Positions 7,940 to 25,360 of a stretch of 27,329 nucleotides of DNA are shown here, piece by piece. The notes beneath the pieces were generated by a model. That model made no database searches and was not told the origin of the DNA. It saw only the letters and a list, made by a program, of their open reading frames with translations. Numbering within the stretch: the first letter of the stretch is position 1; each line of letters starts with the position of its first letter. The stretch is from an uncultured Pseudomonadota bacterium. GTDB taxonomy: Bacteria > Pseudomonadota > Gammaproteobacteria > Steroidobacterales > Steroidobacteraceae. The position numbers and the translations under genes were made by a program. Location: contig CAMLGF010000048.1 of the NCBI GenBank assembly GCA_946479515.1, positions 1-27,329 on the forward strand. Reading direction: 5' to 3'.

Positions 7940-8031
7940 GCAACCCTCCCCCGATGAGCGAATAGCCAATCTTATCCTCGCGCAAGCCATTCTCACCTCC
8001 CGCGGGGTGCGCAGGCGCCAGAATCGCCCGC

Positions 8032-8379
8032 ATGGCCAGCCTGTCCCCTGAACGAAATCCCGTGCCGCCCCGCAGCCGCGAACAGCGGGAAGCCATGCGG
8101 GGTGAATCCACGCTGGGCCCATCCATATTGGGCGACTGGATAGGTGCGAGCCTCACGCGATTCCTCCAGGTGACCCGCCAGGCCGATCCGCGCGAGCTGC
8201 GCCGGCAGGGTGTCGGCGTGCTCGCCGCGGAAATTCCGCCCGCGCGTGCACCGCAGGGCACACGTTCGCTGGGGCCGCCGGGCGCCGGTGGTCACGTTTC
8301 CGCCGTGCGCCAGCGCCCTGCCGTGACCATCATCAAGTGGCGCGAGTACGCGAGCGACGGCACCGCGCAGCCGACCTAG
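8032..8379 (+). CDS. Possible small protein of unknown function (115 aa)
   Basis: This frame is open for 115 codons with a moderately GC-rich third position. Its middle part reads like a protein (GDWIGASLTRFLQVTRQADPRE). The end is IIKWREYASDGTAQPT. There is no clear ribosome site before the ATG and no domain was recognised. A longer frame on the opposite strand (7993-8670) is Arg/Gly/Ala-rich and looks like a shadow. If this gene is not real, the interval 7940-8502 is non-coding and holds only promoters for the GH3 gene and the 84-aa gene. Confidence 0.4.
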   Translation: MASLSPERNPVPPRSREQREAMRGESTLGPSILGDWIGASLTRFLQVTRQADPRELRRQGVGVLAAEIPPARAPQGTRSLGPPGAGGHVSAVRQRPAVTIIKWREYASDGTAQPT

Positions 8380-8502
8380 CCGCGCTTCGCGCCGTCCCAC
8401 TGCCGGTGCGTCCGGCTCCGACAACGAGTCGTGCCGCGTCCGATGGCGCGCGCCCAGCGCGGCTGGAATGCTGAGTGCCGCGACCGCAGCCGGAGAGACG
8501 CC

Positions 8503-8757
8503 ATGGCCGACAAACAAACCCGCGAGTCCGCGCAGCCGCGGCGCCCCACCACGGCGGATCGTAAGTCCCGCCCCGCTGAAACGCGCACCGATGGCACGCC
8601 CCGGCCCGCGCAGCCCGATAGCGAAGAGCAGAGCGGCTCCGCGGGTCGCCCCGCGGCCGACGAGTCGCAACCCGAGGGCGCTGACACCGGCCAGGGGCGT
8701 TACGGGCAGAGCGGCATCGCCGGTCCCGACCCGGGCCGGCGCCCGCGGCGGCCGTGA
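8503..8757 (+). CDS. Small hydrophilic, probably disordered protein (84 aa)
   Basis: The start is fixed by GGAGAG a few bases before the ATG. The protein is rich in Arg, Pro, Glu, Asp, Gly, Ser and Thr, with no hydrophobic segment, no Cys and no aromatic residues apart from one Tyr near position 67. It begins MADKQTRESAQPRRP and ends in a basic tail (GRRPRRP). This composition predicts an intrinsically disordered cytoplasmic protein. Such small proteins are often stress-associated, but nothing here proves that. No family was recognised. Confidence 0.6.
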   Translation: MADKQTRESAQPRRPTTADRKSRPAETRTDGTPRPAQPDSEEQSGSAGRPAADESQPEGADTGQGRYGQSGIAGPDPGRRPRRP

Positions 8758-9893: not shown

Positions 9894-12800
9894 TCACTTG
9901 CCGGCTATGCGTTCGTCCGGCGCGCGGGCGGCCGGCAGCGTGAAGCGGAAGGTCGCTCCGCGCCCAGTGTTCGCTTCGGCCCAGAGCTTGCCATCGTGTG
10001 CCTCGACAATCGTGCGGCTGATGGCCAGCCCCATGCCCGTGCCGGAAGCCTTCGAGGTCACGAAGGCGCTGAAGATCTGTTCGATCCGGTCCGCGGGAAT
10101 GCCCATGCCCGTGTCGCTCACCGAAACGAGCACGCCTTTTTCATGCGCTTGCGTCCGGATGAGCAGCTCGCCGCCCGACTGCCCCATCGCCTCGATGCCG
10201 TTGACCATGAGATTCATGAGCACCTGCTGCAGCTGCACGCGATCGGCGCGCACCGGCGGCAGTTCCTTGCCCAGCTCCGTGCGCATCACGACCGAGTGCC
10301 GGTGGGCCTCGCGTCGCAGCAGCACGAGCATCTCCTGCACCACCTCGTTCACGTCGAGCAGCGCGCGCTGCGGGGCACCGTCTTTCTTGTAGAAGGCTTT
10401 CAGCCCCGCGATGATGTCCGCGGCGCGCTTGCCGTCGTCCTTGATGCGCGCCAGCGCTTCGCGCGCGCGCCCGAGCTCGGGCTGTTCACGATCCAACCAG
10501 CGCAGCCCGGCGCCGACGCTGGCGATGACCGCGCCGATGGGCTGGTTGACTTCGTGCGCCAGCGAGGCCGTCAGTTCGCCGAGCATGCTCAGCCGGTTGG
10601 TGTGCGCCAGGTGCGATTCCAGTCGGCGCAGTCGTTCGCGTTCCTCTTCCGCACGCCGGCGTTCTTCGATGTCGGTGAGCGTGCCGTACCACTTCACGAT
10701 CCTGCCCTGCTTGTCGCGCAGCGGCACCGCCCGCACCAGGAACCACCGGTACTCGCCGGAAGCGCTGCGATGGCGCGCTTCGTTCTCGAAGGGCTGGCCG
10801 GTGGCGAGGGCCGTCCGCCATTTCTCCAGATGCGCCTGGACATCGTCGGGGTGAATGGCCGACTGCCAGGCCGGATCGTCCTTGCGCGCGCTCGGCGCGA
10901 GCCCGCTGTAATCCAGCCAGCGCTGGTTCACCAGGTCGGGACTGCCATCCGGATGCACGGAAAAAGCCATCGCCGGAATTCCCGCGAGCACGTTGCGCAG
11001 CCGCTTTTCCTCGAGCCGCAGTCGGCGCACCCGCAGTTGAAAGCCGCCCCAGAGCAGCCCGAGCACCAGCACCGCGCAGCCGAGGCGGAACCAGAACGTC
11101 TGGTAGAACGCGGGCGCGATCGAGAACTCGAGCTGCGCCGCCTGCTCGTTCCACACGCCGCTGTTGTTGGCCGCCGTCACCTGGAAGCGATACCGGCCGG
11201 GCGGCAGGTTCGTATAGGAAACCTGGCGACGATTGACCGCCTCCTGCCACGCCGCGTCGTGACCTTCGAGCCGGAATCGGAACCGCGTGTTGATGGGATC
11301 GACCAGGCTCAGCGCAGAGAACTCGATGGTGACGTCGCGCACCAGCGGCGGCAGGCGCAGGCCATTCACGGCGGCGCGGTCCTGGCGATCGACGACCAGA
11401 CGTTCGATGTGGACCGGCGGCGGAATCGCGTTGAACGGCAGATGATCCGGGTCGATCACCTGCACGCCGATTCCGGCCACGAACCAGAGCTTGCCATCCG
11501 CGGCTTTCGCCACCGGCGGATTGAAGTAGGCGGGCGAGACGGCTCTGAGGACGACGCCATCGGCCGCGCCCCACACCTGCGGCGCGACCTTGCGGGACCC
11601 GTCGGCCAGCCAGGCGGACAGATCCTCGCGCGACACACGCACCAATCCGCAGGCCGTGTACAACCACATCGCACCGTGGTCGTCTTCGATCGACCAGTGA
11701 ATCGCGTTGCACGGCAATCCGTTCCCGGTGGTCAGCGTGTGGATGCGGCCCTCGTGAATGCGGCTGAGGCCGCCTTCTTCGGTCGCCGCCCACAGCGCGC
11801 CGCCGGTGTCGAGCCGCAGGCCCGAGACATGGCCTTCGCCGAGCCCGTCGGCCACCCCGTAGGACTCGCGCACTTTCCCGTCCTTGAAATACAGCACGCC
11901 GCCATCCAGCCAGAACGACAACCAGACGCCGCCGCGGTCTGCGACGATGACCTTGGCAATCTGCCGGCGTCCCAGCGCGGACCAGGAAAAATTCTCGACG
12001 AACCGGTCGTCGCGAAAATGGGCGAGGCCCTCGTTGCCCGCCAGCCAGAGATTGCCCGCCTCGTCGCCGGTGATGGTAGAGACTTCCCTGCTGGGCAGGC
12101 CCCCGACCGGCACGAACCTGCCGCCCTGGAAATACGCCAGTCCGCGTGGGGTCGTCACCCAGACGCGCCCGCGCGAATCCTCGTACAGAGATTGCGCTTC
12201 GCGACTGGGCAGGCCGCTGGCTTCGCGCAGGATGCGGGGATTGCCGTCCTGCCAGCGGGTCACACCATCGGGGGTTGCCACCCAGAGGCTGCCGTCCTGC
12301 GCCGCGATCACCGACTTGGTGGCATCGCTCGACAGGCCCTGCCGCACCGACAGCGTGGTGATGGGCAATCTGCGAAAGCGATCCAGCCCTCTTTCGCTGG
12401 CAAACCAGATGTTGCCTTCCCGGTCCTGGAAGAAGCTGCAGGCGATGTTCCCCGAGAGTCCGTCCTCCTTGCCGAAGGTGTCCGCCCTGCCGCCCTCGGC
12501 GTGAATGAGGCCGCGCGACTCGGTACCGATCCAGATTCCGCCGTCCCGGTCCAGCAGCAGCTTGTTGGACTGGACATCGCGATCCGGCATGTGGCCCGCG
12601 GGATCGCCGGGACGCGGCAGTAGATAGGGCCGCAGCTCCTCGCCGGCGAGCTGCCTGAGCCCCGCGCCGCGGATGCCGATCAGCAGGCGCCCGTCCGTGG
12701 ACGTGGCCAGATCGCCCAACCGTTCCCCGGATGTCTGCAGTAGTTTGGGCGGACCGGGCTTCCACCGCCACAGACCGGATGCCGCCGCCGCCCACACCGT

Positions 12801-13379
12801 GCCCGCACCGTCCTCGGCGAGACTCCAGACGTAGGCGCCGAATTTTCCGTCCTGCAGGTGACAGCGCGCACGCCCGTCGCGGATCTCGCACAGCCGGCCC
12901 GGGCTCGCGAGCGTGCCGGCCCAGACGGTGCCGTCGCGATCCTCGAGCAGCGAGGTCACGAATCCCTTGTCGATCTGCGGATAGTGCGTGAGCCGCGTGC
13001 CGTCCCAGCTGACCAGCCCCTCGAAAGTGCCGATCCACAGCGTGCCGTCGCGCGAGACCAGCAGGCTGTAAGGTTTGTTAGGCAGCGCCTGGCCCGGCGG
13101 CGGCTGCCAGGGCAGGAAGCGCAGGCCATCGAAGCGGAACAGCCCGAATTCTCCCGCCAGCCAGAGATAGCCGTCCGGGGTCTGGGCCATCGCGAACACC
13201 AGGCCCGCCGGGTATCCCTCCCGGTCCGTCCATGAAGTGTGCGCGTATTGATCGACCTGCAGCGGCGGCTCGCTGGCGGGCGCCGCGCGGGCCAGGATGC
13301 CCAGCGCCAGCAGCAGGGCCGCGCAGGCAGGCCGCCAGCGCCTGCTCAGTACGCTGGCACGATGCGCCCAACGTGTCAC
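9894..13379 (-). CDS. Periplasmic-propeller sensor histidine kinase (Reg_prop, Y_Y_Y, TM, PAS, HisKA, HATPase)
   Basis: The start is a GTG at 13379 that overlaps the stop of the upstream 77-aa gene (TAGTG), giving 1161 residues. A signal sequence (ALLLALGILARAAPA) is followed by about 600 residues of propeller repeats (DGYLWLAGEFGLFRFDG, DGTLWIGTFEGLVSWDG). A Y_Y_Y domain lies near 690-757, a TM helix near 762-783 and a PAS domain near 794-906. The HisKA domain carries phospho-acceptor His942 in SLAHEVNQP. The ATPase domain has the N-box around 1056-1060 (NLMVNG), SDTGMGI near 1088-1094 and GTGMGLAIS. There is no receiver or AraC domain, so it is not a hybrid sensor. The HEVNQP-type H-box is typical of kinases that pair with FixJ-like regulators, and one is encoded upstream. 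The propeller is likely to sense a periplasmic ligand, perhaps oligosaccharide. Confidence 0.93.
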   Translation of the reverse strand: MTRWAHRASVLSRRWRPACAALLLALGILARAAPASEPPLQVDQYAHTSWTDREGYPAGLVFAMAQTPDGYLWLAGEFGLFRFDGLRFLPWQPPPGQALPNKPYSLLVSRDGTLWIGTFEGLVSWDGTRLTHYPQIDKGFVTSLLEDRDGTVWAGTLASPGRLCEIRDGRARCHLQDGKFGAYVWSLAEDGAGTVWAAAASGLWRWKPGPPKLLQTSGERLGDLATSTDGRLLIGIRGAGLRQLAGEELRPYLLPRPGDPAGHMPDRDVQSNKLLLDRDGGIWIGTESRGLIHAEGGRADTFGKEDGLSGNIACSFFQDREGNIWFASERGLDRFRRLPITTLSVRQGLSSDATKSVIAAQDGSLWVATPDGVTRWQDGNPRILREASGLPSREAQSLYEDSRGRVWVTTPRGLAYFQGGRFVPVGGLPSREVSTITGDEAGNLWLAGNEGLAHFRDDRFVENFSWSALGRRQIAKVIVADRGGVWLSFWLDGGVLYFKDGKVRESYGVADGLGEGHVSGLRLDTGGALWAATEEGGLSRIHEGRIHTLTTGNGLPCNAIHWSIEDDHGAMWLYTACGLVRVSREDLSAWLADGSRKVAPQVWGAADGVVLRAVSPAYFNPPVAKAADGKLWFVAGIGVQVIDPDHLPFNAIPPPVHIERLVVDRQDRAAVNGLRLPPLVRDVTIEFSALSLVDPINTRFRFRLEGHDAAWQEAVNRRQVSYTNLPPGRYRFQVTAANNSGVWNEQAAQLEFSIAPAFYQTFWFRLGCAVLVLGLLWGGFQLRVRRLRLEEKRLRNVLAGIPAMAFSVHPDGSPDLVNQRWLDYSGLAPSARKDDPAWQSAIHPDDVQAHLEKWRTALATGQPFENEARHRSASGEYRWFLVRAVPLRDKQGRIVKWYGTLTDIEERRRAEEERERLRRLESHLAHTNRLSMLGELTASLAHEVNQPIGAVIASVGAGLRWLDREQPELGRAREALARIKDDGKRAADIIAGLKAFYKKDGAPQRALLDVNEVVQEMLVLLRREAHRHSVVMRTELGKELPPVRADRVQLQQVLMNLMVNGIEAMGQSGGELLIRTQAHEKGVLVSVSDTGMGIPADRIEQIFSAFVTSKASGTGMGLAISRTIVEAHDGKLWAEANTGRGATFRFTLPAARAPDERIAGK

Positions 13380-13612
13380 TAGCGGCGGCGCAGGTCCACG
13401 ATGCGGATGTAGCCCACGACCCTGGGCCCCTGCCTGATTTCGCGGGTGTCGGTTCGACCCAGGCAGATCTCGTCCTCGTTCAGCAGCATGTGTACGCCTT
13501 CCTCCACGGTGATCGCCGCGGGTAGATAGGCAAGATCGCAGGCATCGACGCAGGCGAGCGGTTCGCTCACCGGCTGTTGTCGCAAATCCGTTCGGAAGAC
13601 ACGCTTTGACAT
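13379..13612 (-). CDS. Small protein of unknown function (77 aa), coupled to the sensor kinase
   Basis: The frame begins MSKRVFRTDLRQQPVSEPLA, continues with CVDACDLAYLPAAITVEEGV and ends in a basic tail (IRIVDLRRR). It has three Cys residues and no signal or membrane segment. An earlier in-frame ATG at 13627 would add five residues; GGAACGAG lies 5-6 nt before the 13612 ATG. Its TAG stop overlaps the GTG start of the kinase, which implies translational coupling. A conserved promoter-like element lies upstream at 13679-13741. No family was recognised. The coupling suggests a function linked to the kinase, but this is inference. Confidence 0.62.
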   Translation of the reverse strand: MSKRVFRTDLRQQPVSEPLACVDACDLAYLPAAITVEEGVHMLLNEDEICLGRTDTREIRQGPRVVGYIRIVDLRRR

Positions 13613-13678
13613 GCCGGCTCGTTCCATTGCCAGGGCGGCGGGAGTCGGCGACAAAGCTATGAGCGTGGCGATGCATTT

Positions 13679-13741
13679 GCCATTGCTAGGAGGTACCCGG
13701 ACGCTACCCGATGGAGTCGCGCCGTTAATACCTGGGGATAA
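13679..13741 (-). promoter_or_regulatory. Two-block conserved element, copy 1, upstream of the 77-aa/kinase operon
   Basis: On the minus strand, block A is TTATCCCCAGGTAT (13741 to 13728). After exactly 31 bp comes block B, GTACCTCCTAGCAATGGC (13696 to 13679). The same two blocks with the same 31-bp gap occur at 21344-21406. Block A overlaps the last codons of the receiver-only regulator. The layout fits an activator site upstream of a core promoter for the 77-aa gene. Confidence 0.6.
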
Positions 13742-14120
13742 TGCGGCAGGGCGACCGTGCCAGCGCCTTGCGCACGCACTCGAGCAGCTCGTCGGGTGCG
13801 AATGGTTTGATGAGGAAGCAGGTGATCCTGGCAGCGAGCGCGCGCTGCTGGTCGAGCTCTCCCGGATGGGCGGTGATGAGAATGGTCGGAATTCCGGCGC
13901 CGGAGTTGACGAGATGCTCGTGCAGCTCGAGCCCGGTCATGCCCGGCATGCGCATGTCGGCGACCAGGCAGGCGACGTTCGCCCGGGCCTGCGAGTCGAG
14001 GAAGCTCGTGGCATTCGAGAAGGTGGCCGTCGCAAAGCCCGCCGCCCTCAGCAGGTCCTGAGTGGCATTGCGGATCGACATGTCATCGTCCACCAGCGCG
14101 ACGAGCGGCCCTTCCGACAT
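13725..14120 (-). CDS. Single-domain response regulator (receiver only)
   Basis: The 131-residue protein is a CheY-like receiver with nothing after it. The acidic pocket is DDD at residues 11-13, the phospho-acceptor is Asp55 in LVADMRMPG, the conserved Thr83 lies in LITAH, and Lys105 lies in LIKPF. All active-site residues are present, so it should be phosphorylated. Without an output domain it may act as a phosphate sink or as a protein-interaction switch for the neighbouring kinase. It is encoded between the FixJ-like regulator and the 77-aa/kinase pair on the same strand. GGGAGA lies 5-6 nt before the ATG. Confidence 0.92.
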   Translation of the reverse strand: MSEGPLVALVDDDMSIRNATQDLLRAAGFATATFSNATSFLDSQARANVACLVADMRMPGMTGLELHEHLVNSGAGIPTILITAHPGELDQQRALAARITCFLIKPFAPDELLECVRKALARSPCRIIPRY

Positions 14121-14137
14121 GGTGTCTCCCGGGTTTT

Positions 14138-14170
14138 GCGGGGCAGCATACCCCGCGGCCGCGAGCGGCC
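14138..14170 (-). promoter_or_regulatory. Two adjacent GC-rich inverted repeats in the leader of the receiver gene
   Basis: GCGGGG/CCCCGC (14138-14143 and 14151-14156) and GGCCGC-GA-GCGGCC (14157-14170) lie side by side between the partial block A element and the receiver start. They would fold in the leader RNA of the receiver gene. No T-run follows, so a simple terminator is unlikely. They could attenuate read-through from the FixJ-like gene. Confidence 0.4.
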
Positions 14171-14196
14171 CCCATTACACCCGGGCGTGCGGCGAC

Positions 14197-14210
14197 TACA
14201 CCTTGGTATA
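14197..14210 (-). promoter_or_regulatory. Block A element, copy 3 (partial), upstream of the receiver gene
   Basis: The minus strand reads TATACCAAGGTGTA, followed by AGTCGCCGCACGCC. The copy at 21393-21406 reads TTATCCCAAGGTAT, then GAGTCGCCGCATGCC. The shared core and flank (CCAAGGT plus AGTCGCCGCAYGCC) show common origin or selection. Block B is not conserved here. The site lies just after the stop of the FixJ-like gene. Confidence 0.5.
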
Positions 14211-14212
14211 CG

Positions 14213-14836
14213 TCAGCCGGCGCGCGGCACACCGAGCCGGTCGGCCATGCGAACCAGTTCGGCAAGCGAGGTCGCCTGCATCTTGCGCATGACCTGGCCG
14301 CGGTGGACTTTCACCGTGACGACGCTCAGGCCCAGCTCGGCAGCAATGCGCTTGTTCGCCTGCCCCGCGACCACGTGGCTCATGACCTGTCGTTCCCGCT
14401 CGGTCAGCGATTCGTGTCGGGCGCGTAGCGCGGCGAGACCCGCCTCTTCGCGCCGCCGCGCCCGGTCGCGTTCCAGTGCCGCGTGTATCGCATCGAGCAG
14501 CACCTGGTCGTCGAAGGGCTTGGTGAGGAACTCGACCGCGCCGGCCTTCATCGCGCGCACGCTCATCGGAACGTCCCCGTGCCCCGTGACGAAGATGATG
14601 GGCAACTGGATTGACGCCTGCGCGAGCTCCTGCTGGAACGCCAGCCCGCTCATGCCCGGCAGTCGCACGTCGAGCACCAGGCAGCCCGGAGCGTCCGGAC
14701 GCGCGGCCCGCATGAATTCCGGTGCCGAGGAGAACAGGCGCACGTCGTGCCCGACGGACCGGAGCAGACTCTCGAGCGAGCGGCGCATGGAGGCGTCGTC
14801 ATCGATGACGAACACCGTGCCTTTGTTCTCGCTCAT
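14213..14836 (-). CDS. FixJ-family response regulator (receiver plus LuxR-type HTH)
   Basis: The 207-residue protein has a receiver at about residues 5-120 with acidic residues 12-14 (DDD), phospho-acceptor Asp56 in LVLDVRLPG and Lys106 in FLTKPF. A linker rich in Arg/Glu follows. The LuxR/GerE helix-turn-helix spans about residues 143-200 (LTERERQVMSHVVAGQANKR, then LGLSVVTVKVHRGQVMRKM). The closest well-known relatives are FixJ and TodT, which bind DNA as phosphorylated dimers and activate transcription. It lies 27 bp after the malectin-domain gene, so the two are probably one transcript. The kinase encoded downstream is the natural partner candidate. The block A sites are candidate targets. 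Confidence 0.95.
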   Translation of the reverse strand: MSENKGTVFVIDDDASMRRSLESLLRSVGHDVRLFSSAPEFMRAARPDAPGCLVLDVRLPGMSGLAFQQELAQASIQLPIIFVTGHGDVPMSVRAMKAGAVEFLTKPFDDQVLLDAIHAALERDRARRREEAGLAALRARHESLTERERQVMSHVVAGQANKRIAAELGLSVVTVKVHRGQVMRKMQATSLAELVRMADRLGVPRAG

Positions 14837-14863: not shown

Positions 14864-16423
14864 TCAGCGCCCTTCGTCGATCACTTCAATTGCGGACACC
14901 GTCGCGTTGTTCACCACGGGTTCAAAGGTGAGGTTGATCTTGCCCTGCGCCGAGGGGCGAATGCCGCGGAAGGTCTTGGAGAGAGCCCGCATGCTGCCGG
15001 CCTCCTTGTAGATATCGAAATTCTCGAGCAGCGCGCGGCCGTTGCAGAATACGTGGAATACCCGGCTACCCACGCCGCCGCCGCCGGTCATCTGCGGCCC
15101 GTAGTAGATCTCGGCGAAGTGCAGCGCCACGGTGTAGCGGCCGCGGGTGTCGACGGGAATCGCGTAACGGAAATGTCCGAAGCGCTCGGAAGCGAACAGC
15201 TCCGGATCATCCGTGCCGGCGATCGAATGCAGGTCGGTGGAACGATACCCGTTGAGAAAGTAGTCCTCCGCGCCCCAGCGCTGCCCCTTCTTGTCGACGA
15301 AGGACGTGGGCTGGGTCGTGAAGCGGATCGGCTGCAGACGCCCGGGATTGCCCGGCACGAGCTCGATGCCATTGAGCGAGGGCGAACCGGCCGCGTTGGT
15401 GAACCCGAGGCGCACCATGCCATCCGAATCCGGCGACACGTCGCGGAACACGCGCGTGGTGGCGATTTCGGTCCCCATCGCGTCGATGTTCAGATCGAAA
15501 CCGGTGAGCAGGGGCTCGCCGTTCAGGCGCACATTGAAGCCCGAGAGCCGCTCATCCCCGGCGCGCTGCGGCGACACGAAATGCAGACGCAACTCGTACA
15601 CTCCCGGTGGCATCGGGATGTCGTAACCGAACTCACCCATGCGCCAGTTCGCGAACAGGAACGGGCGGCTGGTGCCCCCGACGAAAGCGCCGCCGGAGGG
15701 CCAGGCGGCTCCGCCCCGAAAATACCGGTCGGGCTCCCAGCGCACACTCGTGCTGTCGATGATGGCGCTGCCACCATAGCCCGCCAGCAGATGGATCTCC
15801 GTGGGCTGCGAACTGGCCGCCCCGGTCGCGGTGCCCGTTGCGGGCGCGGCGGAGTCAGGCAGTTGATCGGGCTGCTTCGCCGACGCTGCCGTCGTGCCGC
15901 CATTCGACAGCAGGCGATGAATGCCGATGGAGAGCACGGGGATCGCCACCAGCAGGGACGCTCCCACGAGCCATCGCCCTCGCCAGTTGGGTGACGGGCC
16001 GATCGAAGGACCGGGCGAGGCCGCTTCAGACGTCGTCTGCGCTACCGCCGGGTCCGCCGGGGATACGGCGCCTGACGGAGGACGCAGCGCGGGCCTCGCG
16101 AACGACAACGCATATGTGCCAGCCGGCAGAGCGATGACCCATCCCCCGGGTCCCGGACCCGCCTCGTAGATTTTCCCGAGCTTCTTGCGCAGCCGGTGAG
16201 CCTCGACCCGGACCACCGCATCGCGTTCGGGGTCGAAGGTGCTGGCATTGCGCTGGAACATCTCGATGGCGACGTCCACCTCGGTCAGGCGAACCGTGTT
16301 GCGCTGAAAATACTTGTCGCCGAGATAACGGAGCAGCCGTCCGGGCCTGGTATCACGGCCCAGCCCTTCGATTGCCCGGTCGAGCTCCGCGCGTTCGCCG
16401 TCTTGGGAATTCACAGTGTCCAT
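14864..16423 (-). CDS. Membrane regulator with N-terminal DNA-binding-like domain and two periplasmic malectin domains
   Basis: The protein has 519 residues. Residues about 15-108 contain the pattern LLRYLGDKYFQ, EVDVAIEMFQR, FDPERDAVVRVEAHRLRKKL and IALPAGTYALSF, an N-terminal winged-helix-like domain seen in many one-component membrane regulators. A Pro/Ser linker leads to one TM helix at about 150-172 (WLVGASLLVAIPVLSIGIHR). Two malectin-like beta-sandwich domains follow, at about 208-356 and 365-516. Each has an RYFRGG or DYFLNGY loop, F(G/R)Y(D/A)IP, LRLHF or VALHFAEIYYG, and a FDI/FDL strand. Malectin domains bind di- or oligosaccharides. The inferred layout is cytoplasmic DNA-binding domain and periplasmic sugar sensor. 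The FixJ-like gene follows closely. The binding-domain assignment is by motif only. Confidence 0.83.
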   Translation of the reverse strand: MDTVNSQDGERAELDRAIEGLGRDTRPGRLLRYLGDKYFQRNTVRLTEVDVAIEMFQRNASTFDPERDAVVRVEAHRLRKKLGKIYEAGPGPGGWVIALPAGTYALSFARPALRPPSGAVSPADPAVAQTTSEAASPGPSIGPSPNWRGRWLVGASLLVAIPVLSIGIHRLLSNGGTTAASAKQPDQLPDSAAPATGTATGAASSQPTEIHLLAGYGGSAIIDSTSVRWEPDRYFRGGAAWPSGGAFVGGTSRPFLFANWRMGEFGYDIPMPPGVYELRLHFVSPQRAGDERLSGFNVRLNGEPLLTGFDLNIDAMGTEIATTRVFRDVSPDSDGMVRLGFTNAAGSPSLNGIELVPGNPGRLQPIRFTTQPTSFVDKKGQRWGAEDYFLNGYRSTDLHSIAGTDDPELFASERFGHFRYAIPVDTRGRYTVALHFAEIYYGPQMTGGGGVGSRVFHVFCNGRALLENFDIYKEAGSMRALSKTFRGIRPSAQGKINLTFEPVVNNATVSAIEVIDEGR

Positions 16424-16490
16424 GATTCGTCAGCTGTGCGACCTGCCGCGCGAGCGGCACACAAAGTGAAACAGTCAGGTTATTCAGTAG

Positions 16491-16527
16491 TGTACAGAGC
16501 CGCAGGCGCGGCGAAACGCCATGTACA
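16491..16527. promoter_or_regulatory. Pair of TGTACA palindromes in the divergent region of the malectin regulator and LysR gene
   Basis: TGTACA occurs at 16491-16496 and 16522-16527. The two are 31 bp apart, about three DNA turns, so both would face the same side of the helix. They lie in the 177-bp gap between the outward-facing regulator genes. This geometry suits a dimeric regulator, possibly one encoded on either side. Confidence 0.4.
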
Positions 16528-16600
16528 GGCTCGAACCTTACCCCGCCACGATGTCGAGGGTTAGTTTCGGGAAATCGCTGGACACCGGGCGTGCATCTTG

Positions 16601-17659
16601 ATGCAGAAAAATTCGCGTGGCCTCACTGTCGGAGCCCCGGTGGCCCGTGGCTTTCCGGCAATGGTCGCCCGGAACGGGGTTCCAGTCCGGACTCCGAAGT
16701 CGACTGGCGCCAACGCCTGGTTCATTCGCGCCCGCCTGCGGACCCGGCATCTCCTGCTGCTCACCGCCATCGGCGAGGAAGGCAACATCTATCGCGCCGC
16801 CGAGCTCCTGGACATGTCCCAGCCGGCGGCGTCCCGGCTGCTGCGCGATCTGGAGGAAATCATCGGCACCGAATTGTTCGAGCGACTGCCCCGCGGCGTG
16901 CGCGCCAACGACTATGGCAAGGCGGTGATCCGCTACTCGCGGCTGGCGCTCGATTGCCTCAGCGAGGCGGCCGCCGAGGTCGATCGGCTGAAGGCCGGGC
17001 ACAGCGGTCAGGTGATCATCGGAACCATTCCGGGCCCTGCGATCGGCTTCCTGCCCGAGCTCATCGCGAGCGTGGTGAAGCAGAATCCCCGGATCCAGGT
17101 GAGTCTGCATGTGGACTCGAGTTCGCGCCTGCTCGCCGAACTGCAAGAAGGCCGCATCGATCTCATGATCGGCCGCCTGCTCGACCGGGCGAGCAATTCG
17201 GAACTGAGCTACGAACGCCTGGCGCGCGAACCGGTGTGCCTCGCCGTGCGACGCGCTCATCGGCTGATCGGGCAGCCGGGCCTGGCGCTCGCGGATCTGC
17301 TGCAGCAGCCCTGGATACTGCCGCCGGCCGACTGCCTGCTGCGACAGCGCTTCGAGCTGCTCTGCCGGGATTCCGGTCTCACGCCGCCGTCTTCGATCAT
17401 CGAGGCGGCCTCGCCGCCACTCGTTGTCCGGCTCCTGGAAGAGACGGACCACGTGTCCGTGCTCACGCGATCCGTTGCGGCACACTACGCGGATTGCGGC
17501 CGGATCACGATACTGCCCGTTCCCATCCACTGCGGGCTGGATCCTTTCGGAATCATCCTGCGCAAGGGCGCCCTGCCGTCCCCCGCGGCGCGACTGATAC
17601 TCGACTCGCTGAGAAGTCACGCGGCCGAGTGGCGCACTCCGGATGAATGCGTCGCATGA
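16601..17659 (+). CDS. LysR-family transcriptional regulator, GbpR-like
   Basis: The first ATG gives 352 residues. The winged HTH starts near residue 45 (RARLRTRHLLLLTAIGEEGN, then IYRAAELLDMSQPAASRLLR). The first 40 residues are extra compared with the usual LysR length of about 300. An in-frame ATG at 16661 would shorten the protein by 20 residues; neither start has a clear ribosome site. The substrate-binding domain is recognisable from GQVIIGTIPGPAIGFLPELI onward. The RTRHL and ASRLLRDLE wording matches the GbpR branch, which contains regulators of sugar uptake and use. The gene ends 25 bp before the GH74 start at 17685, and the GH74 frame is open across the junction. It probably controls GH74 and may autoregulate. 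Confidence 0.94.
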   Translation: MQKNSRGLTVGAPVARGFPAMVARNGVPVRTPKSTGANAWFIRARLRTRHLLLLTAIGEEGNIYRAAELLDMSQPAASRLLRDLEEIIGTELFERLPRGVRANDYGKAVIRYSRLALDCLSEAAAEVDRLKAGHSGQVIIGTIPGPAIGFLPELIASVVKQNPRIQVSLHVDSSSRLLAELQEGRIDLMIGRLLDRASNSELSYERLAREPVCLAVRRAHRLIGQPGLALADLLQQPWILPPADCLLRQRFELLCRDSGLTPPSSIIEAASPPLVVRLLEETDHVSVLTRSVAAHYADCGRITILPVPIHCGLDPFGIILRKGALPSPAARLILDSLRSHAAEWRTPDECVA

Positions 17660-17684
17660 ACAACGCATACGATCACGGCACGTC

Positions 17685-20252
17685 ATGAGCACTCGAGACC
17701 CTCACGTGAAACTGCAAAACAAACAATCCTTGCGCCGGCGTCTTTGCCTGGGCACCGGATTGGCGGCCTGTGCCCTGTCGGGCTGCGGCGGTGGCGGCGG
17801 TGGGGGCGCTGGCGGTGGAGCCAATCCGCCACCCTCACCACCCCCGGCCGCAACCGCCGCGGCTCCGACCTTCAGTCCGAGTGCGGGCACTTATTCGGCC
17901 GTGCAGGTCGTTTCCCTGGCCACGACCACGCCGGGCGCCGTCATCCGCTTCACGCTGGATGGTTCGGCACCCGACGCCACGTCGCCTGTCTACTCCGGGC
18001 CACTGGTGATCGCCGCAGATACCACGATCCGCGCGGTGGCCGGCGCCACGGGCATGAACGACAGCACCGGCGCGACTGGCGCCTACGCGATCGCGGCCGC
18101 CGCCCAGACCCCGCCGCAATACTCGTGGAAGAACGTACAGATCGTCGCGGGCGGCTACATCACCGGCATCGTCGCGCATCCCGCGCAGGCCAACCTGTTC
18201 TACGCGCGTACCGACATCGGCGGCGCCTATCGCTGGCACGAGGCCACCTCACGCTGGGTGGCGCTCAACGACTGGCACGACATGGACGACTGGAACCTCA
18301 CGGGCATCGAGAGCATCGGCATCGATCCTTCCGACGCCAATCGGCTCTACCTGGCGGCAGGCACGTATACGCAATCCTGGGCGCCGAACGGCGCCATGCT
18401 GCTGTCGAACGATCAAGGCGCCACGTTCCAGGTGGTGCGCATGCCCATCAAGATGGGAGGCAACAACAATGGCCGCAATGCGGGCGAACGCCTCGCGGTG
18501 GATCCCAATGACGGACGCGTCCTGTACTTCGGCTCGCGCCTCAATGGCCTGTGGCGCAGCACGGATCGCGGCGCCACCTGGCAGCAGGTGAATGCATTCC
18601 CGGTCACCGGCCCCGTGAATGGCGCGGATGTCGGCGTGGTGTTCGTGCAATTCCAGGCCGCGAGCGGCGTCACCGGCAGCGCGACGCCGGTCATCTACGT
18701 GGGCGTGTCCTCCAGCGGCCTGAACGCCACGCCGCTGTCGCTGTACCGGTCGGTCGACGCCGGCGCCACGTGGACCGCCGTGCCCGGCCAGCCCAGCGGC
18801 CTGTTGCCCAACCATGCCGAGTTCGGCCCCGATGGCCTGCTCTATCTATCGTATGGCAATGACGCCGGACCCAACGGCATGACCACCGGCGACCTGTGGC
18901 GCTATGCGCCGCCGCCCACCTCCGCGCCGGACGGAGCCGGCACCTGGACGCGCATCACTCCACCGGCGCCTGGCTACCCTAACAACGGTTCCTATGGCTT
19001 CGGCACCATTGTCACCGATCGGCAGAATCCGGGCGTGCTGATCGCCAGCACGCTGGACCTGTGGTGGCAGCATGACGACCTGTGGCGCAGCCTCGACGGG
19101 GGTGACACCTGGACCGAACTCGCCGGACCCGGGAAATTCACGCTCGACTACAGCGGCTCGCCCTGGCTCGCGCAGATTCATTCGCCGGCTTCCGGGTCGC
19201 CCGGATGGTGGATCACCGCCATGGCCATCGACCCGTTCGACGCGGACCGCGTCATGTACGGCACGGGCGCGACCATCTGGACCAGCGCCAACATGCAGGC
19301 GGCCGATACCGGCGGCGTGGTCGCGTGGAGCGTGGGCGCACGCGGCATCGAAGAGACCGCCGTGGTCGCCTTGGTCAGCCCGCCGCAGGGCGCGCGCCTG
19401 GTCAGTGGTCTGGGCGACATCTCCGGCTTCGTGCATGTGGACCTGGACAGCCCGCCCAGCCTGGCGGACATGCTGCGCAATCCCACATTCAGCACCACCA
19501 CTTCGCTGGATTTCGCCGCAGCCGCGCCCGCGGTGATCGCGCGCACCGGTCACGGGGGTGCCACTCCCGGCGCCTATACGCTCGATGGCGGCGCCACCTG
19601 GAATCCCTTTGCCGACTATCCGGACGGGATCGGCGCCGGCGCCGGCTCGATAGCCGTCAGCGCCGATGGCGCCACCTTCGTGTGGTCGCCACTGGAAGGC
19701 GCCGCCAGCCACTTCACCACGAATCGCGGCTCGAGCTGGTCGGTCGCGGCCGGCGCGCCCGCCAACCGCGGTGTGATCGCCGATCGTCATGATGCGAACC
19801 GCTTCTACATGGCGGACGGCACCACGCTGCTTCGGAGCACGAATGGTGGACAGAGCTTCGTCGCTGCGGGCTCGCTACCCGGCAGCGGCAGTCTGTACGC
19901 GTCGCCGCGCGAAACCCAGGATCTCTGGCTGGCGGCGGACAACGGTTTGTATCGCTCGGCCAATGGCGGCACCCAGTTCACCCGTCTGCCGGCCGTGCAG
20001 AGCGCATCGCGCCTCGGGTTCGGGGCGGCCGCGGCGGGTCAGGCGGATCCGGCTATCTACATGATCGGCCGCATCCAGGGGATCACCTCGCTGTACCGCT
20101 CCATCGATGGTGGGCTGAGCTGGCAGAACATCACCGATATCGCCCATCGATTTCCCACGGCCCAGGTGGTGACCGGGGATCCGCGCGCATTCGGCCGCGT
20201 CTACGTGGGCAACAACGGTCGGGGAATCTTCTACGGCGACGCGAGCGACTGA
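17685..20252 (+). CDS. GH74 xyloglucanase, surface or periplasmic lipoprotein
   Basis: The chosen start gives 855 residues. A GTG at 17706 is an alternative that gives a tidier signal. A lipobox (CALSGC, Cys34) is followed by a Gly-rich tether and a Pro-rich linker. A chitobiase/Fn3-associated-like domain spans about 61-137 (PGAVIRFTLDGSAPDATSPV). The GH74 double propeller runs from 146 to the end: YSWKNVQIVAGGYITGI, FYARTDIGGAYRW with likely catalytic Asp177, NLTGIESIGIDP, KMGGNNNGRNAGERLAVDP, GSRLNGLWRSTDRGATW, and AMAIDPFDADR with Asp516 as the candidate partner acid. GH74 enzymes cut xyloglucan backbones. The lipid anchor would hold the enzyme at the cell envelope. The gene is likely co-transcribed with LysR. 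Confidence 0.93.
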   Translation: MSTRDPHVKLQNKQSLRRRLCLGTGLAACALSGCGGGGGGGAGGGANPPPSPPPAATAAAPTFSPSAGTYSAVQVVSLATTTPGAVIRFTLDGSAPDATSPVYSGPLVIAADTTIRAVAGATGMNDSTGATGAYAIAAAAQTPPQYSWKNVQIVAGGYITGIVAHPAQANLFYARTDIGGAYRWHEATSRWVALNDWHDMDDWNLTGIESIGIDPSDANRLYLAAGTYTQSWAPNGAMLLSNDQGATFQVVRMPIKMGGNNNGRNAGERLAVDPNDGRVLYFGSRLNGLWRSTDRGATWQQVNAFPVTGPVNGADVGVVFVQFQAASGVTGSATPVIYVGVSSSGLNATPLSLYRSVDAGATWTAVPGQPSGLLPNHAEFGPDGLLYLSYGNDAGPNGMTTGDLWRYAPPPTSAPDGAGTWTRITPPAPGYPNNGSYGFGTIVTDRQNPGVLIASTLDLWWQHDDLWRSLDGGDTWTELAGPGKFTLDYSGSPWLAQIHSPASGSPGWWITAMAIDPFDADRVMYGTGATIWTSANMQAADTGGVVAWSVGARGIEETAVVALVSPPQGARLVSGLGDISGFVHVDLDSPPSLADMLRNPTFSTTTSLDFAAAAPAVIARTGHGGATPGAYTLDGGATWNPFADYPDGIGAGAGSIAVSADGATFVWSPLEGAASHFTTNRGSSWSVAAGAPANRGVIADRHDANRFYMADGTTLLRSTNGGQSFVAAGSLPGSGSLYASPRETQDLWLAADNGLYRSANGGTQFTRLPAVQSASRLGFGAAAAGQADPAIYMIGRIQGITSLYRSIDGGLSWQNITDIAHRFPTAQVVTGDPRAFGRVYVGNNGRGIFYGDASD

Positions 20253-20935: not shown

Positions 20936-21019
20936 GAGATCCCCCGTGCGTGAAGGAGGATCATAGCGGCAATGCGGTGGCGGCCGGTGCGAAAAGCGGC
21001 GCTGCCGGCAGCGCGCTCG

Positions 21020-21313
21020 TCACGGCTCCTTTCGGGCGAACGTGCCGCCGCGCATGAGCGCCGCGGCCTGCAGGTCGCACTCCGCCAACTCCACCAGCGC
21101 CTGCATCAGGCGCACGCGCAAACGACCCGCCGGCTCGCTGTCCCTGCGAGTGACCAGCGACACCTCCGCAACCGACAGGTCGTTGCGCAGCCGGAATGCC
21201 TGCAGCGCGGGCAGGCGGAGAAAAAGTTCACGCAGGTGCCGGGTAACACGCGCATCAGAGTGCGGCTGCTGCGCTCCGTCATCGAGGAAGGATGCCGAGA
21301 CTGCGTGAACCAT
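21020..21313 (-). CDS. Small protein of unknown function (97 aa)
   Basis: The frame has GC-rich third positions. It encodes a Leu/Arg-rich helical protein (RVTRHLRELFLRLPALQAFR, DLSVAEVSLVTRRDSEPAGR, LRVRLMQALVELAECDLQAA). An upstream in-frame ATG at 21394 lies inside block A of the promoter-like element and cannot be the start if that element drives the gene. The ATG at 21313 is therefore preferred, and one at 21337 is possible. No ribosome site is evident. No family was recognised. It shares its upstream element with the 77-aa/kinase operon, so it may respond to the same regulator. Confidence 0.55.
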   Translation of the reverse strand: MVHAVSASFLDDGAQQPHSDARVTRHLRELFLRLPALQAFRLRNDLSVAEVSLVTRRDSEPAGRLRVRLMQALVELAECDLQAAALMRGGTFARKEP

Positions 21314-21343
21314 GGGGGCAGTCTGGCAGTTCCACATGGGCGC

Positions 21344-21406
21344 GCCATTGTGAGGAGGTACGTCGCCGCTGTGCGTTGGCATGCGGCGACTCATACCTTG
21401 GGATAA
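21344..21406 (-). promoter_or_regulatory. Two-block conserved element, copy 2, upstream of the 97-aa gene
   Basis: The minus strand has block A TTATCCCAAGGTAT (21406 to 21393), a 31-bp gap, then block B GTACCTCCTCACAATGGC (21361 to 21344). Block B differs from copy 1 at only two positions and block A at one, while the 31-bp gap is not conserved. That is the pattern expected of functional sites rather than a recent duplication. The GH10 gene diverges on the other side, about 220 bp away. Confidence 0.6.
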
Positions 21407-21627
21407 GGATATGGGAAACGCGCCTTCGCAATGCGCGTTACGTTATGCCTGGCGCGTCCTCCAGCCTGTTCCCGCGGACTGGCAGCAAGCGTTACGCGCA
21501 TTCGCGTTCTCCACCTACAGACCTTCGCCGCGCCCTGCATCTAAATGGATGCGGACCGACGATGAGCCGACGGGGCCTGCTGACCATCTTTCTCTAACTA
21601 GTCTCACGACCAGGGGAGACGCTCGCA

Positions 21628-23301
21628 ATGACTACGATGAACTCGCGGATCGAAGGCCGCCGGCGCGCGGCAGGAACCATCGCCAGTTGGCTGGGTACCG
21701 CCGCCCTGGCTGTCGCCGCCCTGGTGCTCACCGGGTTACCCATCGAGGCCAGCGCCCAGGGTGCCAGTACCATCGTGGTGCGCGCACGCGGTACGGCCGG
21801 CGGCGAATCGATCACGCTGCGCGTCGACGGCACCAACGTCGCCACCTGGACGCTGACCACGAGCTATCAGTCGTTCAGCGCATCGACCAGTCTCAGCGGT
21901 GGCATCACCGTCGCCTTCACGAACGACGCCAGCGGCCGCGACGTCCAGGTGGATTACATCGTCGTCAACGGCGAAACCCGGCAATCCGAGAACCAGAGCT
22001 ACAACACCGGTCTGTACGCGAATGGCAGTTGCGGCGGCGGATCCAACAGTGAGTGGATGCATTGCAACGGCGCCATCGGCTACGGTCAGGTCGCCAATTC
22101 CGCCAACGGCATCGTGGTGCGCGCGCGCGGCACGGCGGGTAGTGAGTCCCTCAGCCTGCGGGTCGACAACACGAATGTCGCGACCTGGACGATGTCGACC
22201 GGCATGCAGGACTACAGCGCCTCCACGAACCTCAATGGCGCCATCACCGTGGCGTTCACCAATGACGCCAGCGGCCGCGACGTCCAGGTCGACTACATCG
22301 TCGTCAACGGCACCACGCGGCAGGCCGAGGCACAGAGCTACAACACCGCGCTGTACGCCAATGGCAGCTGTGGCGGTGGCGGCTTCAGCGAGTGGATGCA
22401 TTGCAACGGCGTCATCGGCTTCGGCAACGTCAGCGGTGGCGGCGGCGCCGGTCCCGGGCTGCCCGACTTCTTCGTGGGCAACATCACCACCAATGGCAGC
22501 GTGCGCAGCGACTTCGTCCAATACTGGGACCAGATCACACCCGAGAACGAGGGCAAGTGGGGCTCGGTCGAGGCCACGCGCGACGTGTACAACTGGAGCG
22601 GCCTCGACGCGGCATACAACTACGCCCAGCAGCACGGCATCCCGTTCAAGCAGCACACTTTCGTGTGGGGCAATCAGGCGCCGAGCTGGATCAACAGCCT
22701 GAGTGCGAACGAGCAGGCGGCCGAGATCGAGGAGTGGATTCGCGACTTCTGCGCGCGCTACCCGAACACGGCCATGATCGACGTGGTCAACGAGGCCACG
22801 CCGGGGCACGCGCCCGCAGGATTCGCGCAGAACGCGTTCGGCAGCAACTGGATCGTCCGCTCCTTCCAGCTGGCGCGGCAGTACTGTCCCAATGCCGTGC
22901 TCATCCTCAACGACTACAACGTGTTGAGCTGGGATACCGACAAGTTCATCCAGATGGCGACACCGGCCGTGAACGCCGGCGTGGTGGACGCGCTGGGCGC
23001 CCAGGCCCACGGCCTCGAGGGCCAGTCGCTGAGCAGCCTGCAGAGCAAGCTCAACCAGGTCGCGGCGCTCGGTCTGCCTATCTACATCACCGAGTACGAC
23101 GTCGCCCGAACCAACGACCAGGAGCAGCTGCAGATCATGCAGTCCCAGTTCCCGTTGTTCCACGACCACCCGTCCGTGGCGGGGATCACGCTCTGGGGAT
23201 ACGTGGTCGGCAGCACCTGGGTCAACGGCAGCGGGTTGATCCAGAGCAACGGCACGCCGCGTCCGGCCATGACTTGGCTGATGAACTACCTCGGACGGTG
23301 A
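21628..23301 (+). CDS. Secreted GH10 endo-beta-1,4-xylanase with two tandem CBM60-type modules
   Basis: A GGGGAG site precedes the ATG. The protein has 557 residues with a signal peptide ending at SAQ near residue 44. Two consecutive modules of about 110 residues (49-161 and 162-268) each contain IVVRARGTAG, LRVDxTNVATW, TVAFTNDASGRDVQVDYIVV and a Cys pair in NGSCGG...WMHCNG. This is the CBM60 pattern, a Ca-dependent xylan or beta-glycan binder. A Gly-rich linker leads to a GH10 barrel at about 279-557. Key motifs are ITPENEGKW (303-311), the acid/base Glu389 in DVVNEA, NDYNV (428-432), and the nucleophile Glu489 in ITEYDV. The function is hydrolysis of xylan chains. The 97-aa gene is divergent. 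Confidence 0.96.
   Translation: MTTMNSRIEGRRRAAGTIASWLGTAALAVAALVLTGLPIEASAQGASTIVVRARGTAGGESITLRVDGTNVATWTLTTSYQSFSASTSLSGGITVAFTNDASGRDVQVDYIVVNGETRQSENQSYNTGLYANGSCGGGSNSEWMHCNGAIGYGQVANSANGIVVRARGTAGSESLSLRVDNTNVATWTMSTGMQDYSASTNLNGAITVAFTNDASGRDVQVDYIVVNGTTRQAEAQSYNTALYANGSCGGGGFSEWMHCNGVIGFGNVSGGGGAGPGLPDFFVGNITTNGSVRSDFVQYWDQITPENEGKWGSVEATRDVYNWSGLDAAYNYAQQHGIPFKQHTFVWGNQAPSWINSLSANEQAAEIEEWIRDFCARYPNTAMIDVVNEATPGHAPAGFAQNAFGSNWIVRSFQLARQYCPNAVLILNDYNVLSWDTDKFIQMATPAVNAGVVDALGAQAHGLEGQSLSSLQSKLNQVAALGLPIYITEYDVARTNDQEQLQIMQSQFPLFHDHPSVAGITLWGYVVGSTWVNGSGLIQSNGTPRPAMTWLMNYLGR
21772..22431 (+). repeat. In-gene tandem duplication encoding the two CBM60 modules
   Basis: The two units start at 21772 and 22111, a period of 339 bp or 113 codons, with no insertion or deletion between them. 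The longest shared run includes the stretch encoding DASGRDVQVDYIVVNG, where only a few third positions differ. Other parts have diverged, so this is an established duplication with one strongly conserved segment. Confidence 0.85.
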
Positions 23302-23347
23302 ACCGGGTTCGGGGAGGGCCGCGAGAGCATCGACGTGATCTCGCGCC

Positions 23348-23495
23348 TCACCCGTCAAACTGCGATGGCGCGCGCCAGTCGCGGGCGAGGAGCGTAAAGC
23401 CGGCCGCCGCCGAATGCATGGCCAGCAGACCGCCCATGAGTTCCCTCGCCGTGCGGTACGAGAGATAGCCGGCCCGTCGCCCGGGTTCGGGCGCG
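23348..23495 (-). pseudogene. Possible gene remnant (open C-terminal fragment of about 49 codons)
   Basis: On the minus strand a codon-biased frame reads GYLSYRTARELMGGLLAMHS, then AAAGFTLLARDWRAPSQFDG and a stop. It is open for only about 49 codons after an upstream TGA. An ATG at 23437 would give 29 residues. The RELxGxLAxHxAAxGF pattern is faintly like the middle of Mrr-type nuclease domains, but it is too short to assign. The rest of the 239-bp gap between GH10 and the GumN-like gene shows nothing else. Confidence 0.25.
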
Positions 23496-23540
23496 TGTCA
23501 TGCCGGAACTATTGGCAACACGCCTGGCTCCAACGTCCGC

Positions 23541-24560
23541 ATGCGCAAGAGCCTTACTACCGTGCTCGCCCTCTCCTGCGGACTGAATGCCGACATCTCC
23601 CGGGCGCAGACCCCCGAGGAACCGCTGGACGAGATCGTCGTCACGGGCGAATACGCGGGGCCTGGCATGTGGCAGATCACGCATCCGGAGCATCCGGGTC
23701 ATACGCTCTGGATAGTCGGCGAGCCGCCGCCATTGCCCAGCCAGATGCGCTGGCATTCGCGGAACGTGGAGCGCGTGGCACTGCAGTCGCAGGAGATCCT
23801 CCAGCAGACTGGCACTTCGCTGAAGCCCGACAAGAAGATTGGCGTGTTCCGCATGCTGAGCCTCTTGCCGGCGGCGATGAAGTTGCGCAAGAACCCCGAC
23901 AAGGCCACGTTGCAGGAACTGCTGCCGCCCGACATGTATGCGCGGTGGCTGGCGCAGAAGAAGCTCTATCTCGGGCGCGACCCGGGTATCGAGAAGATGC
24001 GGCCGTTCCTCGTGGCCGAGAAGCTGCGCAATGCCGCGCTCGAGAAATTGCAGTTGGGCGGGGGTGGCGTCTGGCAGCAGCTCTGGCAGCTCGTTCGGGA
24101 GAAAAACATTCCGGTGACGAATCCCACTCTCGAGTTCAGCTTCAAGACCGACAATCTGCGTGGCCAGCTCAAGGCATTCTCCCGCCAGAGGCTCGCCGAC
24201 GAGGAATGTCTGGCGAAGACCATCGAACTCACCGAGGCCCTGTCAGACAAGCAGGTGGAAGGCGCTCGAGCCCGCGCCTGGGCCACAGGCGATCTCGCCA
24301 CGCTCGAGCGGCTGCCTTCATTGCCCGATCCCGACGCTGCATGCGAGAACGCCATCGTCAGTGCATTGGCGATGACGACACCCATTCCCGCGGATTTGCG
24401 CCAGCAGGCGGACGAACTGTGGTTCGTCGCGGCGAGCAATGCATTGGCGAAGAACGAGAGCACGCTGGCCTTCGTGAACATGGGCACCCTGCTCGGCGAG
24501 CAGGGGTATCTCGAAAGTCTGCGCAAGCGCGGCTACCAGATTCAGGCGCCTGCCATCTGA
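23541..24560 (+). CDS. TraB/GumN-family protein, exported
   Basis: The protein has 339 residues with a signal peptide (MRKSLTTVLALSCGLNADISRAQ). Family landmarks are HTLWIVGEPPPLPSQMRWHS near residues 54-73, a helical middle, and the C-terminal pattern STLAFVNMGTLLGEQGYLES followed by LRKRGYQI. In typical members this last region reads FVxVGxxHLxGxxGxxxxLxxxGY. Here the usual HL of the motif is replaced (GTLLGE), so a proposed catalytic or metal role may be lost. The family includes Xanthomonas GumN and TraB-like proteins, with no settled biochemical role. The start has no clear ribosome site. The next gene follows within 65 bp, so the two probably form an operon. Confidence 0.75.
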   Translation: MRKSLTTVLALSCGLNADISRAQTPEEPLDEIVVTGEYAGPGMWQITHPEHPGHTLWIVGEPPPLPSQMRWHSRNVERVALQSQEILQQTGTSLKPDKKIGVFRMLSLLPAAMKLRKNPDKATLQELLPPDMYARWLAQKKLYLGRDPGIEKMRPFLVAEKLRNAALEKLQLGGGGVWQQLWQLVREKNIPVTNPTLEFSFKTDNLRGQLKAFSRQRLADEECLAKTIELTEALSDKQVEGARARAWATGDLATLERLPSLPDPDAACENAIVSALAMTTPIPADLRQQADELWFVAASNALAKNESTLAFVNMGTLLGEQGYLESLRKRGYQIQAPAI

Positions 24561-24623
24561 CATTGCAGCGAATTGTCGGGCGGCGCGGGCACGCTACTGG
24601 ACTACGCGCGCGAGGGAAGGCTG

Positions 24624-25238: not shown

Positions 25239-25336
25239 GGTTGATAGGAATTGTAGTCGTCGAAGTCGGCAGTGGCCTTGTAAGTCGTCAGATCCGCACC
25301 CAACTGACGCGCCGCAGTTAAAGTAGCGCCATCATC
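25235..25336 (-). pseudogene. Possible gene remnant or micro-ORF (33 codons)
   Basis: The minus strand from a GTG at 25336 reads VTDDGATLTAARQLGADLTT, then YKATADFDDYNSYQP and TAG. The wording looks like the natural C-terminus of a protein. The frame is open only about eleven codons further upstream, running into the deacetylase start. The stop overlaps the end of the membrane-protein gene. Nothing else is seen in the 122-bp gap. It could be the tail of a gene lost when the deacetylase gene arrived. Confidence 0.25.
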
Positions 25337-25360
25337 AGTCACGCAGACGGGACCAAGCCA

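Follow-up and report, generated by a model that had tools for sequence, protein, structure and literature searches.

Animals bind sugars with malectin proteins, and plants watch their cell walls with malectin-type receptors. The regulators described for bacterial hemicellulases are of other kinds: the available sections of a review of the subject name as common systems the hybrid two-component systems (HTCS), the extracytoplasmic function (ECF) sigma factors with their anti-sigma factors, and catabolite repression, and contain no malectin (PMC10766802). The available text of a paper on xyloglucan in Xanthomonas does not mention malectin (PMC8245568), and, as far as the accessible parts of the article go, the xyloglucan locus of Cellvibrio japonicus appears, according to its authors, without a sensor or regulator (PMC4285296). 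A census of transmembrane transcription regulators (TTRs), the class of ToxR and CadC, was based on Pfam models of DNA-binding domains, and malectin is absent from its main text, in the portion available (PMC10269533). No description of a malectin-bearing bacterial transcription regulator was found in the literature searched, which consisted mostly of papers available without subscription, in part as excerpts. Here, we describe a candidate for such a regulator, encoded in a 27,329-nucleotide stretch of DNA from an uncultured bacterium of the Steroidobacteraceae (contig CAMLGF010000048.1). This whole stretch is called the window, and coordinates are window positions unless a locus is named.

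The gene in question (14864..16423, minus strand) is an open reading frame (ORF) of 519 amino acids with an ATG start, just as the original prediction had it, and belongs to a family of full-length relatives. With a probability of about 0.6, it encodes a transmembrane one-component regulator that senses a glycan and regulates both its own gene and the operon transcribed divergently from it. The neighbouring genes for glycan uptake and wall degradation would probably be controlled directly, without a kinase relay. The one-component role, already put forward in the original prediction, is supported by an OmpR-like fold, a single transmembrane segment with a lysine/arginine (K/R) bias and outward malectins, the fusion of the same N-terminal domain to a receiver elsewhere, and upstream words together with a conserved candidate operator; the DNA binding of the N-terminal domain is, within this role, predicted. 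The plant-sugar part of the reading is supported by the adjoining xyloglucan and glucan genes and by the aromatic sugar-site positions kept in the second malectin domain. According to the proposed mechanism, the winged helix would lie in the cytoplasm at the inner membrane and the tandem malectins in the periplasm. A glycan fragment, at best guess an oligosaccharide of xyloglucan or of a related beta-glucan, would enter through an outer-membrane receptor and then bind the malectin part, most likely its domain 2. The signal would have to cross the membrane and alter the way in which the membrane-held winged helices are placed on the intergenic DNA that separates the regulator gene from its divergent neighbour, presumably in the sense of activation rather than repression. 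The regulator would thereby control its own gene and a divergent operon, which consists of a TonB receptor with a glycoside hydrolase (GH) of family GH31 or GH9 nearby in three gammaproteobacterial relatives (loci L001-L003), and of LysR and xyloglucanase genes in the window.

In a simple hydropathy scan, exactly one hydrophobic segment exceeds the threshold in 121/121 proteins, namely the regulator and 120 listed homologues, in agreement with the one transmembrane helix predicted originally. In the window protein it covers residues 149-173 (15905..15979, minus strand), between the N-terminal domain and the malectin part, where the confidence of the structural model is low. A K/R surplus lies on the N-terminal side of the segment in 75 of the 120 homologues and on the C-terminal side in 13, which fits a topology with the N terminus inside and the malectins outside. 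The full-length model has a mean predicted local distance difference test score (pLDDT) of 84 and a predicted template modelling score (pTM) of 0.65, and is weak in the linkers and the transmembrane region; the linkers of about 35 residues flanking the segment are predicted to be disordered (pLDDT <50 at residues 115-164 and 172-203). The Pfam scan of the protein listed malectin families alone, with no kinase or receiver domain.

The N-terminal domain (about residues 3-110; 16094..16417, minus strand) is modelled at pLDDT 90, and the model resembles the DNA-binding domains of OmpR and PhoB. The winged-helix-like character claimed for it is carried by the model, whereas Pfam gives no match in the window protein (Trans_reg_C is matched in 7/72 family members) and the Foldseek matches of the domain model stay below significance. 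The sequence search gave no link to a solved structure either, the best match, a ferritin at E 0.045, being taken as chance. In an alignment of the window's domain with 71 of the 74 extracted ones (those of L014, L044 and L060 were left out), the stretch RVE.HRLRK is almost invariant and falls in the helix that corresponds in position to the recognition helix. Moreover, in locus L090 (580-1827, plus strand) the domain is fused behind a receiver, so that it stands where an output domain belongs. In other proteins, the same Pfam-silent winged helix follows a receiver or precedes a PD40 propeller, TPR repeats, or a transmembrane segment with other conserved C-terminal parts; the carriers outside the malectin regulators are, besides L090, L084 (1822-4149, plus strand), L088 (437-2233, minus strand), L101 (1228-3078, plus strand), L102, L103 and L106-L108. 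It occurs in 35 of the 217 genomes of L001's family, the three carriers of the regulator among them. A module that is Pfam-silent in most of the proteins scanned and fused to such varied partners means that some proteins annotated as hypothetical may be regulators.

The two tandem malectin domains of the original prediction are clearly present. Pfam Malectin (PF11721) matches in two stretches (E 3.7e-30; 105.5 bits against a cut-off of 23), Malectin_like (PF12819) reaches 25.5 bits against a cut-off of 24.5, and the two domains are similar to one another (31% over 145 amino acids; hhalign probability 98.8). Domain 1 covers about residues 207-358 (15350..15805, minus strand) and domain 2 about residues 365-518 (14870..15331, minus strand). 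The sugar-contact residues of Xenopus malectin are Y67, Y89, Y116, F117 and D186, as given in the available text of PMC7783096. Among them, Y89, Y116 and F117 correspond to F415, Y440 and Y441 of domain 2, in a numbering counted by hand and with Y67 and D186 not placed by the tool, and the segment holding Y116 and F117 is missing from domain 1. The three aromatic positions of domain 2 are kept in 65, 65 and 64 of 67 locus members. A Foldseek search with the regulator model returned ectodomains of FERONIA (FER) and ANXUR (ANX) as its first ten matches (E 8e-19 to 3e-16); superposition aligned 290-298 residues at a root-mean-square deviation of 7.5-8.0 Å, and thus the relative placing of the two malectin domains may differ from that in ANX/FER. 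The malectin part would sense a glycan, perhaps a xyloglucan oligosaccharide.

Upstream of the regulator, the window and L001-L003 share an element of 61-62 bp with fixed spacing, GTAC-N5/6-GTTTCG-N16-GTAC-N5-TGA-N10-YGTTWCAC. In the window, this candidate operator lies at 16466..16526 (minus strand) and reads GTAC-N5-GTTTCG-N16-GTAC-N5-TGA-N10-TGTTTCAC, with N5 where L001-L003 have N6. Its 44-bp core has exactly one zero-mismatch match in the genome of each of the three relatives, always upstream of the regulator; the pattern was derived from the same four loci, so the result is one of uniqueness and not of presence, and this uniqueness points to a dedicated local regulator. When up to three mismatches are allowed, the three genomes hold 7, 6 and 6 matches versus 6, 5 and 2 for the reversed control, and the lone match with one mismatch overlaps the L003 element itself, in reverse. 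A promoter element may form part of the 61-62 bp. A clean dyad was also considered and rejected, as find_repeats returned no inverted repeat common to the four regions, the outer arms being partly symmetrical by eye.

Short words recur upstream of the regulator in the wider family. A first count over 48 upstream regions (44 non-gammaproteobacterial ones, the window and L001-L003) gave CGTTACA in 20 (2.2 expected) and CGTTAAC in 18 (2.6 expected). Because these words were both picked and counted in one set of regions, a held-out test is fairer: GTTAAC or CGTTACA lies within 400 bp upstream of 16/25 held-out regulators, one clade of eight related loci included, versus 46/504 other genes (p 1.8e-10), and of 8/14 after thinning by hand from a blastn list (p 1.6e-5, Fisher). 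A non-redundant acidobacterial set of 35 regions, including that of L033, which is labelled Arcobacter, was compared with 254 other intergenic regions of the same loci. CGTTACA was found in 12/35 versus 8/254 (p 1e-7), GTTAAC in 17/35 versus 16/254 (p 1.5e-9), and TGTACA in 6/35 versus 4/254 (p 3e-4); the word types of L003 and the window, CGTTTCAC (2/35 versus 5/254, p 0.2) and GTTTCAC (3/35 versus 9/254), are unenriched in this set. Set against other divergent intergenic regions, the contrast is kept per region (CGTTACA 20/47 versus 5/49; GTTAAC 19/47 versus 6/49) and is weaker per kb. The distance between neighbouring GTTAAC copies is 21-24 or 32-33 bp in 10 of 21 cases, which would place the copies on one face of the helix. 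The consensus extends little beyond the short words, mainly by a preceding C. A single motif for all proteins with this N-terminal domain was rejected: GTTAAC or CGTTACA occurs within 400 bp upstream in 3/17 of the non-malectin ones, at -10 to -32, without clear enrichment.

The conserved partner of the regulator family is a divergent outer-membrane receptor. The neighbour that recurs constantly in the acidobacterial set is an outer-membrane protein that combines OMP_b-brl_4 and CarboxypepD_reg domains (cluster 1, with 62 members from 58 loci). Taken together with a cluster of TonB receptors (cluster 18), it lies within 1.3 kb divergently upstream in 44 of the 67 loci with 1.5 kb of upstream sequence and downstream in 4 of the 60 with 1.5 kb of downstream sequence, out of 76 called regulators; among genes more than 2.5 kb away it accounts for 13/407. 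The receptors of L002 and L003 stand outside the count of 44, and the gene caller was a simple script, which missed the window's FixJ-like and receiver genes and put small doubtful ORFs between some neighbours. The original prediction, made from a window that lacks such a receptor and so could not reveal it, had instead drawn a functional clue from a FixJ-like response regulator gene within 27 bp downstream. The gene is there (14213..14836, minus strand), but its adjacency is not a family trait: as a functional partner it was dropped, with no tblastn match in L001-L003 and a match within 2.5 kb downstream in 2/56 loci, L029 and L039, which are near-copies. Beside the Edaphobacter regulator of L022 (3466-9333, minus strand) is encoded a 1955-residue protein in which three malectin stretches are combined with Laminin_G_3, F5/8 type C and fn3 domains, and upstream of that of L024 (6517-9825, plus strand) a 1102-residue protein without a Pfam match, whose cluster has 21 members in 20 loci.

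In L001, a divergent TonB receptor is followed by a GH31 gene whose best solved relative is Xyl31A (2xvg, 1125 bits), with GH9 and GH10 genes further off. We take 2xvg to be the Cellvibrio Xyl31A, which fits PMC4285296. In L003, a LysR gene comes first, followed by a receptor and a GH31 that are 87% and 80% identical to those of L001, so that a Xyl31A-like alpha-xylosidase is present in two of the three relatives. In L002, the divergent receptor is divided between two ORFs (65% and 58%) and followed by GH9; the split (5567-8636, minus strand), with the plug in one ORF and the barrel in the other, is due to an assembly error or a broken gene. In tblastn searches, neither the receptor nor the GH31 of L001 found a match in the window, and the window's GH74 found none in the other loci. 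The enzyme sets thus differ between the window and L001-L003, and what they share is the theme of xyloglucan and beta-glucan and not one enzyme set.

The family comprises 1386 proteins at E<=1e-5 among 7997 candidates scored; the best 120 of these relatives, the ones studied, are 51-59% identical to the window regulator, its own copy apart. One scan of genome contigs gave 79 loci, with the regulator called in 76. L001-L003 are Gammaproteobacteria (54-55% identity) and nearly all the others are Acidobacteriota, mostly 30-48% identical in the best segment, with one locus labelled Arcobacter. Among the carriers are cultured soil bacteria, namely Edaphobacter aggregans (L022) and Acidobacteriaceae KBS 96 (L035). 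In the Arcobacter record (L033, titled Arcobacter sp.), the regulator is sister to that of the Bryobacteraceae locus L047, and the record is probably mislabelled or a mixed bin. The regulators of the window and L001-L003 are 54-67% identical to each other and, in a midpoint-rooted tree of 75 proteins, form one clade (100/100) with seven selected homologues, among which two are identical to L001 and L003. This clade is nested among Acidobacteriaceae through several supported forks, which suggests one transfer from Acidobacteriota. The regulator is present in just 3/217 genomes of L001's family and 2/396 genomes of the order.

The role in sensing plant sugars claimed in the original prediction draws support from the glucan and xyloglucan genes beside the window regulator and those of L001-L003 and from the aromatic residues of domain 2, and several observations count against it. 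The nearest tandem-malectin structures, the ANX/FER ectodomains, include one solved with a RALF peptide (6a5e), and the constant neighbour of the family is an outer-membrane receptor with CarboxypepD_reg; both would suit a malectin part that recognises a protein, such as the periplasmic portion of the divergent receptor, as FERONIA and ANXUR read RALF peptides. This is unlikely, as the aromatic positions that line the sugar site of animal malectin are conserved in domain 2, and the window, although it carries wall-degrading genes, lacks a receptor of this type. Likewise, most members are acidobacterial and stand beside Oar-like receptors, with no plant-wall enzymes noticed there, as would be expected if the ligand derived from envelope glycans, either the cell's own or microbial ones, and the wall-degrading neighbours were incidental. 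However, the window regulator and its three relatives all adjoin glucan or xyloglucan enzymes despite being so far apart in sequence, which makes an envelope ligand quite improbable.

The signalling step could also take another form, since disordered linkers on both sides of the transmembrane segment would allow the wing domain to be freed from the membrane by regulated cleavage after ligand binding. To this we give a slim chance: no protease gene was noticed among the neighbours, although no further test was made, and ToxR/CadC-type proteins act from the membrane, according to the accessible text of PMC10269533. It is highly improbable that the N-terminal domain binds a protein partner instead of DNA, making the protein a membrane-bound lectin, given the nearly invariant motif at the recognition-helix place, the fusion to a receiver, and upstream words that are specific to the regulator gene. 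A glycan-sensing regulator that acts on DNA from the membrane is the reading we prefer.

The window regulator does lie between two blocks of wall-degrading genes, as the original prediction had noted. To its left are a pectic lyase, a GH5, a weak pectate-lyase match (below the Pfam cut-off) and a GH3, and to its right a GH74-type xyloglucanase, a GH10 with CBM60 (a carbohydrate-binding module) and a polysaccharide deacetylase. Apart from the xyloglucanase gene, these lie within 1-8122 and 20972-27329 and form a wide wall-degradation island. The divergent LysR-type regulator gene (16598..17659, plus strand), whose homologue in L003 (55%) occupies the corresponding position, is overlapped by 17 bp by the start of the xyloglucanase gene (17643..20252, plus strand), which matches xyloglucanases in the PDB down to E 6e-163. 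Downstream, the regulator heads a same-strand series (9894-14836) made up of the FixJ-like gene, a gene for a stand-alone single-domain receiver (13725..14120, minus strand) and a sensor histidine kinase gene (9894..13676, minus strand) with a Reg_prop/Y_Y_Y sensor, PAS, HisKA and HATPase domains, and hence may also control these three genes. This gene order was not seen in the relatives. The sensor type of the kinase is that of the Bacteroides glycan HTCS, but the receivers are separate.

If correct, this regulator would give soil bacteria a direct, kinase-free route to read glycans, supply gammaproteobacterial xyloglucan loci with the sensor noted as apparently missing in Cellvibrio (available text of PMC4285296), and provide many of the Oar-like outer-membrane receptors found in Acidobacteriota with a regulator; the 61-62-bp element offers a defined, directly testable DNA. 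Tentatively, and at somewhat worse than even odds, these proteins may represent an as yet undescribed class of bacterial receptors that join a FERONIA-like tandem malectin ectodomain directly to a DNA-binding domain. The class would have its origin in Acidobacteriota, in a pairing with divergent outer-membrane receptors, and would have been transferred a single time, along with its operator type, to soil Gammaproteobacteria, to become there the local sensor of xyloglucan loci.

As a kind of protein, ToxR-like membrane regulators are known; new are the malectin sensor, the Pfam-silent winged helix, the pairing with a divergent receptor and the candidate operator. As far as the available text of PMC10269533 describes them, ToxR and CadC share with the window regulator the one transmembrane segment and the periplasmic sensor, and also, as predicted for the window protein, the OmpR-like N-terminal winged helix and the passage from signal to DNA within one protein. 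The census of this class, relying on Pfam models for the DNA-binding domain, would have missed the window regulator. FERONIA and ANXUR are likewise single-pass membrane receptors with two outward malectin domains, but the plant receptors carry a kinase where the window regulator has a predicted DNA-binding domain. Malectin-like domains also occur in bacterial beta-glucuronidases and other GHs, such as BuGUS-2, where they are part of an enzyme and not of a regulator; in CAZy they are classed as CBM57. The Cellvibrio japonicus locus resembles L001 and L003 in its TonB receptor and Xyl31A-type alpha-xylosidase, and differs in that the sensor or regulator apparently missing there is present here (PMC4285296, in the parts available). 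Finally, the Bacteroides HTCS are similar in being local membrane sensors that control a locus of receptor and GH genes, whereas the window regulator has neither kinase nor receiver, and the Reg_prop/Y_Y_Y kinase of the window is encoded separately.
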